A stretch of DNA of 64,000 nt from Pedobacter sp. (GTDB lineage Bacteria > Bacteroidota > Bacteroidia > Sphingobacteriales > Sphingobacteriaceae). How positions within the stretch are numbered: position 1 is the first letter of the stretch; each line of letters begins with the position of its first letter. Where the stretch lies: positions 1 through 64,000 of the forward strand of contig JACMND010000189.1 of NCBI GenBank assembly GCA_014378705.1, read 5' to 3'. This document shows, in pieces, positions 619 through 63,846 of the stretch. A model generated the notes under the pieces. It was not told where the DNA came from, searched no databases, and saw only the letters and a list, made by a program, of their open reading frames with translations. Made by a program: the position numbers and the translations under genes.

Positions 619-684
619 CAACTCGAATTTAATTAATTATACCTGTTGTATAAGTCTCATCAACAGGCTCTTACGGTTTTTTAG

Positions 685-761
685 GGTGCGTTAACGATGG
701 TAGCGACATCCTTTTTGACTTTTTTTTCAAAAAGATACAGCGTACAGCGTGTTAAAACGCT
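685..761. repeat. Copy 1 of a ~77-bp dispersed imperfect palindrome
   Basis: ggtgcgttaacgatggtagcgacatcctttttgac...tcaaaaagatacagcgtacagcgtgttaaaacgct is the reverse complement of 39218-39295 with few mismatches. Confidence 0.85.
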
Positions 762-23085: not shown

Positions 23086-23146
23086 TTGTGGGTTGCAGGT
23101 TGTCGGTTGCAAGTGTTACCTGCAACCGACAACCTGCAACCCACAA
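23086..23146. repeat. Long palindrome made of GTTGCAG-like words between rpsB and tsf
   Basis: ttgtgggttgcaggttgtcggttgcaagt - gtt - acctgcaaccgacaacctgcaacccacaa; 29-nt arms with one mismatch, 3-nt loop. Confidence 0.95.
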
Positions 23147-32670: not shown

Positions 32671-32847
32671 ATGAAATACAGATTTGACTTAAATAAGCCC
32701 AATGGTAGTGGAAAATTTCAGGTTTTTAAGCTGGGCCTAAAAAGTATACCGGGGCTGAACAAGCAAATATCACGGAAACTCAATTGCCAAATTTTAAAAA
32801 ATTTTAGCTATCGTTTTACAACTCTTACTTCATATAATAATGGATAA
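32671..32847 (+). CDS. Possible 58-aa small ORF between argG and argC, overlapping the argC start
   Basis: MKYRFDLNKPNGSGKFQVFKLGLKSIPGLNKQISRKLNCQILKNFSYRFTTLTSYNNG*; below the length cut-off of the ORF track; coding status uncertain. Confidence 0.3.
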   Translation: MKYRFDLNKPNGSGKFQVFKLGLKSIPGLNKQISRKLNCQILKNFSYRFTTLTSYNNG

Positions 32848-33898
32848 AAGGCTTATTAAAGCGGGGATTATTGGCGGTGCCGGGTATACTGGCGGGGAGT
32901 TAATCCGGATCTTAATTAATCATCAGCAAGTAGAAATTGCTTTTGTACATAGCGGCAGCAATGCCAATAATTATGTTTCGGATGTTCACACCGATTTATT
33001 GGGAGATACTGATCTTAAATTCTGTAATAATGAAGTTTTAAAAAAACTTTCGTCCGGAGAGGGTCTGGCCGAAATTGATGTCTTGTTTTTATGTGTTGGG
33101 CATGGCGATGCACAGAAGTTTTTAGAAGAAAATTTAATTGATGAACGGATTAAAATTATTGACTTAAGTCAGGACTTTAGGTTAATTCAAAATTCAAAAT
33201 TTAAAATTCAAAAGGAAGGTACAAAGGCAAACAGCCAACTGCCTGTGGCCAAGTTTATTTACGGATTGCCAGAGCTAAACCTCGAAGAGATTAAATCTGC
33301 TCAAAATATTGCTAACCCTGGTTGCTTTGCCACTTGTATTCAGTTAGGCTTATTGCCTCTTGCCTCAAAAGGATTGTTGAATGGCGAAATTCATATCAAC
33401 GCCACCACGGGCTCTACCGGTGCCGGGCAAAGCTTGTCAGCCACGTCGCACTTTAGCTGGCGAAATAATAACTTATCGGTTTACAAAGCATTTGAACATC
33501 AACATTTGAATGAGATTGGAGAATCTATCAAACAACTTCAACCAAACTTTGCCGGCCAGATAAACCTAATTCCGCAAAGGGGCAATTTTACCCGTGGTAT
33601 TTTGTCTGCGATTTATTTGGACTGTAATTTATCCCTCTCAGAAGCCGAGAGCTTATTTATTAATTATTATCGGGAATATCCATTCACACACATCAGCAAA
33701 AATAACATCAACCTTAAACAGGTTGTCAATACCAATAAGTGCCTTATTCATTTAGAAAAGGAGGGAAGTAAATTATTGATCGTAAGCATCATTGATAACC
33801 TGCTAAAAGGTGCCAGCGGACAAGCGATTCAAAATATGAATTTAATGTTTGGGTTTGAAGAAACAGCAGGCCTGAAATTGAAGGGAATAGGGTTTTAA
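32840..33898 (+). CDS. argC: N-acetyl-gamma-glutamyl-phosphate reductase (interrupted by a low-complexity in-frame insertion)
   Basis: KAGIIGGAGYTGGELIRILINH; NPGCFATCIQLGLLPL; TTGSTGAGQ; insertion LIQNSKFKIQKEGTKANSQLPVAK. Confidence 0.94.
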   Translation: MDKRLIKAGIIGGAGYTGGELIRILINHQQVEIAFVHSGSNANNYVSDVHTDLLGDTDLKFCNNEVLKKLSSGEGLAEIDVLFLCVGHGDAQKFLEENLIDERIKIIDLSQDFRLIQNSKFKIQKEGTKANSQLPVAKFIYGLPELNLEEIKSAQNIANPGCFATCIQLGLLPLASKGLLNGEIHINATTGSTGAGQSLSATSHFSWRNNNLSVYKAFEHQHLNEIGESIKQLQPNFAGQINLIPQRGNFTRGILSAIYLDCNLSLSEAESLFINYYREYPFTHISKNNINLKQVVNTNKCLIHLEKEGSKLLIVSIIDNLLKGASGQAIQNMNLMFGFEETAGLKLKGIGF

Positions 33899-33899
33899 T

Positions 33900-33918
33900 A
33901 GTTTTACGTTATAAGTTT
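33900..33918. repeat. Left flank of S23 ORF, built from GTTTTAC / GTTATAAG words
   Basis: agttttacgttataagttt; its reverse complement AAACTTATAACGTAAAAC is a word-permuted version of the right flank AAACGTAAAACTTATAAC. Confidence 0.6.
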
Positions 33919-34308
33919 ATGCATATGCAAAATTTTAAAGACCTAAAGGCTTGGGATAAAGCGCATCAATTAATCTTGCAAATTTATAGGGAGCGTAAGA
34001 CCATTTTTAAAGATAAAGTATATAGTTTGACAAATCAATTAGGAAGAGCAGCTTCGTCCGTTCCGGCTAATATTGCAGAATGGTGCGGTAAAAATTCGCA
34101 AAAAGATCTTGAGAACCTCTTAAATATTGCTTTCGGTTCAGGTAGTGAAGCTGGATATTTTTTATTATTAGCAAAAGATTACGAATGCCACCCATCTAAT
34201 CAAAATGTAATTCTTTACGATAAGGTTGACGAGGTTGAACGGATGCTTACAGCACTGATTTATAAAGTCAGAATTAATAAAATTCAGTTATTAATGCGCT
34301 TTATATAA
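33919..34308 (+). CDS. Four-helix bundle / 23S rRNA-intervening-sequence (S23) family protein
   Basis: NFKDLKAWDKAHQLILQIYRERKTIF...LTNQLGRAASSVPANIAEWCGKNSQKDLENLLNIAFGSGSEAGYFLLLAKD is typical of the S23/IVP family; alternative ATG at 33925. Confidence 0.9.
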   Translation: MHMQNFKDLKAWDKAHQLILQIYRERKTIFKDKVYSLTNQLGRAASSVPANIAEWCGKNSQKDLENLLNIAFGSGSEAGYFLLLAKDYECHPSNQNVILYDKVDEVERMLTALIYKVRINKIQLLMRFI

Positions 34309-34325
34309 AACGTAAAACTTATAAC
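34308..34325. repeat. Right flank of S23 ORF, built from CGTAAAAC / TTATAAC words
   Basis: aaacgtaaaacttataac immediately after the S23 stop codon and before argD. Confidence 0.6.
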
Positions 34326-34331
34326 TCCAAA

Positions 34332-35465
34332 ATGAACTTATTTAATGTTTATCCCATAAATAGCGTAGAAATTATTAAAGCTTCCGGCAGTTCTGTTTGG
34401 GATACAAACGGCACAGAATATTTGGATATGTACGGCGGTCATGCCGTAATTTCAATTGGCCATACACATCCCCATTATGTAAAACGCATTACAGCGCAGT
34501 TAAGTCAAATTGGGTTTTATTCCAATTCAGTTGAGATTCCCTTACAGCAACAACTGGCAAATAAGCTTGGTGAGATATCAGGGAAAAGTAATTACCAGTT
34601 ATTTTTATGTAATTCAGGTGCAGAAGCGAATGAAAACGCGTTGAAACTGGCATCATTTTACAACAATCGAAAGAAGATCATTGCATTTAAGGGTGCCTTT
34701 CATGGCCGTACTTCCTTAGCCGTTGCTGCAACAGATAATCCGAAAATTATCGCCCCGGTAAACGAAACCAAAAATGTTATTTTTCTCCCATTTAATGATG
34801 AGGAAGCCTTGTTTCAGGTTTTTGCCGATCAGGGAAACGAAATCTCATCGGTTATTGTTGAGGGAATTCAAGGAGTTGGAGGCATACATGTGGCATCGAA
34901 AGAATTTTTAAGAAAAATTCGCTCGCTTTGTGATACATTCAATGCTGTTTACATTGCTGATAGTGTTCAATGCGGTTATGGCCGGAGCGGTAAATTTTAT
35001 TCGCATGATTATGCAGGTGTTGATGCGGATATTTATACCATGGCTAAGGGAATGGGAAACGGTTTCCCGATAGGTGCTATATCAATCACACCAAAAATAA
35101 AACCCTGGCACGGCATGCTGGGAACTACTTTTGGCGGAAACCACCTGGCTTGTGCCGCGGCATTAGCTGTTCTGGAAGTTATCGATAACGAAAACCTTTT
35201 GCTGAACGCTGAAAAAACCGGTGGTTATTTAATGGAAGAGCTTAAAAAATTTAAGCAGGTGAAAGCAGTACGTGGTTTAGGATTGATGATTGGTATTGAA
35301 CTTCCTGAAGAATTATCTCATGTAAAGAAAGACCTGCTTTTTAAACATCATATTTTTACCGGCGAAGCAAAACCCAATATTATCCGCTTACTTCCAGCTC
35401 TAAATCTTACCCAAGAAAAAGCAGATAGTTTTCTTGATTCATTTTCTAAAACTGTATTACAATGA
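34332..35465 (+). CDS. argD: Acetylornithine/succinylornithine aminotransferase (class III PLP)
   Basis: YLDMYGGHAVISIGHTHPHYVKRI; CNSGAEANENALKLA; QCGYGRSGKF; YTMAKGMGNGFPIGAI. Confidence 0.95.
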   Translation: MNLFNVYPINSVEIIKASGSSVWDTNGTEYLDMYGGHAVISIGHTHPHYVKRITAQLSQIGFYSNSVEIPLQQQLANKLGEISGKSNYQLFLCNSGAEANENALKLASFYNNRKKIIAFKGAFHGRTSLAVAATDNPKIIAPVNETKNVIFLPFNDEEALFQVFADQGNEISSVIVEGIQGVGGIHVASKEFLRKIRSLCDTFNAVYIADSVQCGYGRSGKFYSHDYAGVDADIYTMAKGMGNGFPIGAISITPKIKPWHGMLGTTFGGNHLACAAALAVLEVIDNENLLLNAEKTGGYLMEELKKFKQVKAVRGLGLMIGIELPEELSHVKKDLLFKHHIFTGEAKPNIIRLLPALNLTQEKADSFLDSFSKTVLQ

Positions 35466-63597: not shown

Positions 63598-63662
63598 TTA
63601 TTATTATAAATAATTTAGTTAAACATCCTGCACTAAGGGGTTATATGCAGATAATTAACTTT

Positions 63663-63846
63663 TACCTTCCCTACGCCGGCATTATCCGGATCAGGTGCTC
63701 TTAAAAGGTTGAGGATTTCAAGGTTGAAAGTTGAAGCATGTTATTGCTTTTTACCTTTTTCCTTTTTGCCTTCTGCCTTTTTAGATGGGTATGTTCTCAG
63801 CCTGTTTTTATGTTTGATTTCACAAACAAGGCACCCCTTATTGATA
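63663..63846 (-). promoter_or_regulatory. TPP riboswitch (THI element) with a long P3-side insertion
   Basis: Minus strand reads ATAAGGGGTGCC...GGCTGAGAacATACCCatct-[insert]-gagcACCTGATCCGGATAATGCCGGCGTAGGGAAGG, matching THI-box conserved blocks; upstream of TonB receptor. Confidence 0.95.

Follow-up and report, generated by a model that had tools for sequence, protein, structure and literature searches.

To our knowledge, no function has been assigned to S23 proteins since the intervening sequences (IVSs) of 23S rRNA were described. Eukaryotic foldback transposons of the FB/Galileo type carry inverted arms of short tandem repeats, which vary in copy number, around a variable middle. In the rRNA IVS of Coxiella, tandem GACAGAT heptamers lie ahead of the S23 gene and differ in copy number among strains, and the element, which has a 28-bp terminal stem, is excised by RNase III (Warrier et al. 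2016, PMC4990558). Iterated heptamers also form both strands of the P6b stem in the trnL group I intron of Nostoc (TDNGATT or NNTGAGT), where the entire stem-loop has been repeatedly replaced (PMC4476775), and TAACTGA heptamer arrays occur in intergenic regions near start codons in Beggiatoaceae, Cyanobacteria and Bacteroidetes (PMC4679880); the text of the latter paper contains no occurrence of S23. On structural grounds, the Avd accessory protein of diversity-generating retroelements is considered a homologue of the PF05635 family (PMC10053308). Bacterial intergenic heptamer repeats have so far been reported piecemeal, a literature search on S23 in combination with mobility or heptamers found no work linking them except that on the Coxiella IVS, and the general heptamer anatomy of S23 cassettes appears to have gone unrecognised.

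We analyzed a 64,000-nt stretch of a Pedobacter sp. genome (the window), in which an S23 cassette occupies the gap between the stop codon of argC and the start codon of argD. The argC gene (32840..33898, plus strand) was assigned by its open reading frame and homology to relatives, and the downstream argD-type acetylornithine aminotransferase gene (34332..35465, plus strand) by its reading frame and synteny in relatives, the name argD being based on operon context and sequence. The 129-aa reading frame between them (33919..34308, plus strand) belongs to the S23, or 23S rRNA IVS-protein, family, as the preliminary description had proposed: it matches PF05635 with 92.9 bits (cut-off 33.8, E 1.8e-26) and TIGR02436 with 90.3 bits (cut-off 24, E 8e-26). 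By family alignment the true start is probably the second ATG, at 33925. The left arm (33899..33918, plus strand) has the sequence TAGTTTTACGTTATAAGTTT; its reverse complement, AAACTTATAACGTAAAACTA, divides into AAACTTA TAACGTA AAACTA. The right arm (34308..34328, plus strand), AAACGTAAAACTTATAACTCC, divides into AAACGTA AAACTTA TAACTCC, shares one base with the S23 stop codon and ends 3 nt ahead of the argD start codon. Both arms take part in the inverted pairs I1 and I6, and the left arm is further supported by the longer heptamer arms of relatives at the same site. The permuted words reported earlier, AAAC-TTATAAC-GTAAAAC on the left in reverse complement and AAAC-GTAAAAC-TTATAAC on the right, are present as written, and such swapped 7-mers are the expected look of a short, inverted heptamer array. 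No rRNA match was found within the window, and the cassette, lying between argC and argD, is outside any rRNA gene.

Taken singly, the window copy is weak. Its own arms rank at 7-12% against swapped partners, their RNA duplex is predicted at -21.5 kcal/mol versus -15.7 kcal/mol for shuffled arms (p=0.07), and the RNA fold of the copy has a z of -1.09; by themselves the arms are thus marginal and barely exceed chance. The protein lacks R41 and G53, nearly invariant in the family alignment, so that the R41/G53/P28 signature is not present; in place of the family's SQ-RRA, NIAEG-G and FPK it has NQLGRAAS, NIAEWCGK and RERKTIFKDK. Because these residues are lost and the protein sits on a long branch in the family tree, the window S23, with its short arms, looks like an ageing, degenerate copy.

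The signal becomes clear at the level of the class. S23 loci were collected from the window's genome, its genus, a sample of the phylum, other phyla, and cyanobacterial and Azospirillum plasmids; the other-phyla sample was queried with a single consensus-like sequence and leans toward consensus-like S23. For 129 non-redundant Bacteroidota loci, each left flank was compared with the reverse complement of the right flank at its own locus, which gave a mean match score of 16.7, compared with 8.7 for swapped partners; the own partner fell in the top 1% at 65 of the 129 loci and in the top 5% at 94, and direct-orientation matches were much rarer (15/129 in the top 1%). The autocorrelation of the flanks reaches 0.38-0.39 at lag 7, is raised at 14, 21 and 28 nt, and is 0.26-0.29 elsewhere. 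With one fixed detector, a period-7 array was found in the 200-nt flanks of 120 of 200 S23 loci (in both flanks at 51), which bears out the idea of a unit that recurs, made of an S23 reading frame and inverted ends of iterated words; about 40% of the loci have no such array at the threshold used. Other periods were rare at the same 200 loci, with 14 period-8 cases and 0-2 for any of lags 5, 6, 9, 10 and 11. In the background, drawn as 20-kb stretches from 15 Bacteroidota genomes, period-7 arrays occurred in 13 of 5940 random 200-nt windows; since these are mostly coding, the fold difference exaggerates how far S23 flanks stand apart from intergenic DNA, but the background would stay at a few percent even if every hit were assumed to be intergenic. 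Windows at least 700 nt away in the same loci carried an array in 48 of 1289 cases, a few of these windows containing a second S23 gene themselves. The evidence that heptamer arms are a class property of S23 loci, far beyond chance, is therefore overwhelming. Such arms were also seen in Chloroflexota, Nitrospirota, Acidobacteriota, Pseudomonadota and Cyanobacteriota, in small numbers each. At three loci (L095, L163 and L275) the arrays flank S23 in direct rather than inverted orientation.

The words themselves differ from locus to locus. The window's genome has four S23 loci, one of them with internal stops, and each has different words; within a locus the left and right arms match, and between loci they do not share words. 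The pseudogene (L004, 1200-2000) lies between CoA-transferase subunit genes, and its flanks contain iterated ATTTGATG-like words. Matching is locus-specific even among orthologues: own arms scored 16.9 versus 14.0 for arms swapped among orthologues at argC-argD (permutation p 2e-4), 17.9 versus 10.5 at fadB-fadA (p 2e-4), and 17.4 versus 10.8 at a third site (p 8e-4), so the words turn over and the left-right match is retained. In relatives, the orthologous cassettes at argC-argD follow the layout of the window copy with longer heptamer arms, and when close relatives are compared, an individual arm may be longer or shorter by one or more complete heptamers. One arm can change without the other, so instant copying is not what maintains the match. 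Arms that are locus-specific yet matched left to right are hard to square with sequence-specific transposition and point to copying in 7-nt steps.

The cassettes are also long-term residents of particular gene pairs. Of 247 S23 loci, 37 lie at argC-argD and 19 at fadB-fadA, a recurrence that disagrees with randomly hit gaps and with the earlier suggestion of insertion at neutral intergenic sites. The S23 tree, built on 120 columns and with many forks unresolved, follows the insertion site, with 20 changes of site label against a minimum of 14 and a mean of 84 after shuffling. The argC-argD proteins fall mostly into one clade that spans Sphingobacteriaceae, Chitinophagaceae and Weeksellaceae, which speaks against a recently moved cassette. 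That cassettes are tolerated within operons was correct. Codirectional neighbours flank 162 of 193 S23 loci, compared with 630 of 930 background pairs. Within these 162 gaps the S23 gene is oriented with its neighbours in 144 cases and against them in 18, and divergent gaps hold S23 only 9 times. S23 is under strong purifying selection, with dN/dS about 0.1 (median 0.10, maximum 0.29 over 167 pairs, which are not independent). The tree by site, the purifying selection and the co-orientation together indicate that the protein is used and that the cassette has long resided, and is transcribed, at its site. The argC-argD cassette is thus an old resident, probably of the IVS-type foldback kind, and not a fresh jumper. 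A comparison of the argC-argD junction in relatives for empty sites, as the preliminary description had proposed, revealed patchy presence, with empty junctions in L009, L015 and L020. The L009 gap, which has no S23, contains another hairpin-like sequence, GTCATGCTGACGAAGGAAGCATC...GATCCTTCGTTCCTCAGGATGACA.

The same anatomy occurs within rRNA. The 23S rRNA of Azospirillum lipoferum 4B contains an S23 gene in a canonical IVS with heptamer arms CAGARGA/CGGATGA, and this 469-nt cassette stands in place of the 16-nt hairpin tip GCGATCTTATGATCAC. The strain also has an rRNA copy whose site is empty, with the tip intact and identical flanks; two further copies are empty on the evidence of megablast rows. 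The Azospirillum junction, with its 16-nt replacement, shows no visible target-site duplication. Since heptameric repeats accompany S23 in the IVSs of both Azospirillum and Coxiella, the arg cassette and the rRNA IVSs share an anatomy.

Heptamer hairpins without S23 were found in the window as well. A near-perfect hairpin of GTTGTGG GTTGCAG GTTGTCG GTTGCA and its inverse lies in the rpsB-tsf gap (23086..23146, strand not assigned; DNA fold z -10.5); it is orthologous and partly decayed in L366-L368, and the remaining relatives have other hairpins or sequence there. An (AATTCAA)n array (33184..33213, plus strand) lies in a variable loop of the argC coding sequence, where L008 and L023 have other in-frame heptamer arrays. 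Upstream of a TonB-dependent receptor gene, a heptamer hairpin (63698..63785, minus strand) takes the place of stem-loop P3a in a TPP riboswitch (RF00059 match at 63651-63715, scoring 40.3, under the Rfam gathering cut-off of 54.3). Most of 16 genus members have their own, species-specific heptamer words in P3a; the autocorrelation averages 0.51 at lag 7 and 0.22-0.28 at other lags, the two halves of one stem pair at -25.9 kcal/mol, against -18.6 kcal/mol for swapped halves (p 2e-4), and the sense strand is the stronger in 14 of the 16. By eye, clear heptamers are missing from P3a in G001 and in G015, in which no S23 was found. S23-less arrays are rare in most other sampled Bacteroidota, and the 80 kb sampled from each of the S23-rich genomes G142, G104, G162 and G069 contained no heptamer array. 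G018 differs in having many inverted pairs without S23 and far more arrays than S23 genes. Its period-7 arrays are far denser than in the other sampled genomes; one segment (G018:C10:400001-800000, L281-L300) holds dozens of them in its 400 kb, with almost no other period and many S23-less inverted pairs. In the window, positions 679-758 (plus strand) also match the Flavo-1 sRNA (RF01705, 50.9 bits).

Several candidate drivers were considered. No RVT_1 reverse transcriptase (PF00078) was found in the window's genome (G000) or in G012, which has 8 S23 matches, and across 148 genomes of the phylum S23 is present in 116 and RVT_1 in 58; an Avd-like reverse-transcriptase partner was consequently rejected as a requirement. 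A Y1 transposase of the RAYT type, absent from G000 and G018, was rejected likewise. As genomes with S23 exist that have no RVT_1 or no Y1, neither enzyme is obligatory. The density of S23 genes does not correlate with that of heptamer arrays genome-wide (Spearman 0.21, p 0.41, 17 genomes). Regarding the form in which the arms act, the sense RNA duplex was not stronger than its antisense counterpart over 198 S23 loci (p 0.22), a weak sense-strand lead in energy was seen at co-oriented loci (p 0.02), and the kinds and counts of mismatches point to the antisense strand; the same energy test was clearly positive on the riboswitch hairpins, used as a control. Neither the mismatches nor the even overall energies support selection for the arms of S23 loci as a hairpin of the sense RNA.

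The reading we favour, and hold to be somewhat likelier right than wrong, is that the arg-operon unit is an IVS-type foldback cassette with heptamer-iterated arms, residing in an mRNA operon. The S23 gene would lie in the loop, and two inverted iterated-heptamer arms could fold together as in the 23S rRNA intervening sequences, the cassette being read from the arg transcript. The arms may lengthen and shorten through 7-nt slippage, with the left-right match upheld by hairpin-templated copying and by selection for the foldback. An S23 oligomer might bind or act on the arms and thereby retain the cassette, and by analogy with rRNA, RNase III may excise it from the mRNA.

That the cassette is instead actively mobile, as the preliminary description had it, with S23 and its arms jumping in DNA or RNA form into gaps within operons, perhaps driven by an enzyme in trans, would account for the patchy presence and for the empty argC-argD junctions of some relatives. 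The filled and empty Azospirillum rRNA copies with identical flanks also fit it, but could reflect loss by gene conversion as well. We consider active mobility unlikely, since the clades follow the sites (20 label changes versus 84 shuffled), the copies within a genome are divergent and do not conserve their arms, and neither a Y1 transposase nor RVT_1 is needed. Slightly less probable still is a host function, with S23 as an ordinary small protein of the host, retained at fixed places in operons, and the arms as a by-product of a 7-nt-iterating mutation process at hairpins. The strong purifying selection and long residence at the same sites agree with such a host function, as do the S23-less heptamer stems in the TPP riboswitch, the rpsB-tsf gap and the argC coding loop, and those of the Nostoc trnL introns (PMC4476775). 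In G142, G104, G162 and G069, however, arrays that are absent from the sampled background are present at S23 loci, so the mutational process would need a preference for these loci.

The reverse order of events, in which heptamer hairpins are primary and S23 genes insert into them, draws on the excess of arrays over S23 genes in G018 and on the existence of S23-less inverted pairs; it is made improbable by the near absence of S23-less arrays from most sampled genomes, whose S23 loci nevertheless have arrays. Finally, the permuted 7-mers of the window locus could be meaningless, as its marginal statistics (p about 0.07, z -1.09) would allow if the copy stood alone. The clear heptamer arms of orthologous cassettes at the same site, and the superiority of own over swapped arms within argC-argD (p 2e-4), leave chance with very little credit.

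More broadly, S23 cassettes and rRNA IVSs, together with heptamer hairpins that lack S23 and the heptamer stems found in riboswitches and introns, might form one widespread class of prokaryotic foldback elements, whose arms have no fixed sequence and are rewritten at each locus in 7-nt steps, with S23 writing or guarding them; we put this forward tentatively and regard it as doubtful. If the heptamer arms are the partner of S23, the role of this protein and the heptamer repeats merge into one testable system. It would also account for the recurrence of S23 genes between the same operon genes and offer a way to date and follow the turnover of the cassettes.

Compared with the known systems, the S23 loci of the window's genome, which differ in words, do not share the terminal sequence that characterizes MITE, IS or REP elements. 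The suggested lead to Avd of diversity-generating retroelements fails on one point, as the window's genome lacks an RVT_1 reverse transcriptase. The TAACTGA arrays resemble the present ones in being intergenic heptamer arrays near start codons in overlapping taxa, but have one fixed word, mostly in direct repeats, and the Nostoc P6b stem lies within a group I intron and has no S23 reading frame. As a class, S23 loci have the inverted arms of short tandem repeats that define foldback transposons; unlike in the latter, the arms are locus-specific and not shared by a family, the host is not eukaryotic, and no transposase was seen in searches for Y1_Tnp and RVT_1. A close counterpart is the 23S rRNA IVS of Coxiella, Leptospira and Azospirillum. 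From it the arg cassette differs in that its host RNA is a protein-coding operon and in that the arms of this copy are short; its terminal inverted repeats are marginal as a stem (p 0.07), and those of the orthologous argC-argD cassettes are significant as a group. The two have in common the S23 family, a reading frame placed between inverted, potentially complementary ends and sporadic presence, and, with the IVSs of Azospirillum and Coxiella, heptameric end repeats.
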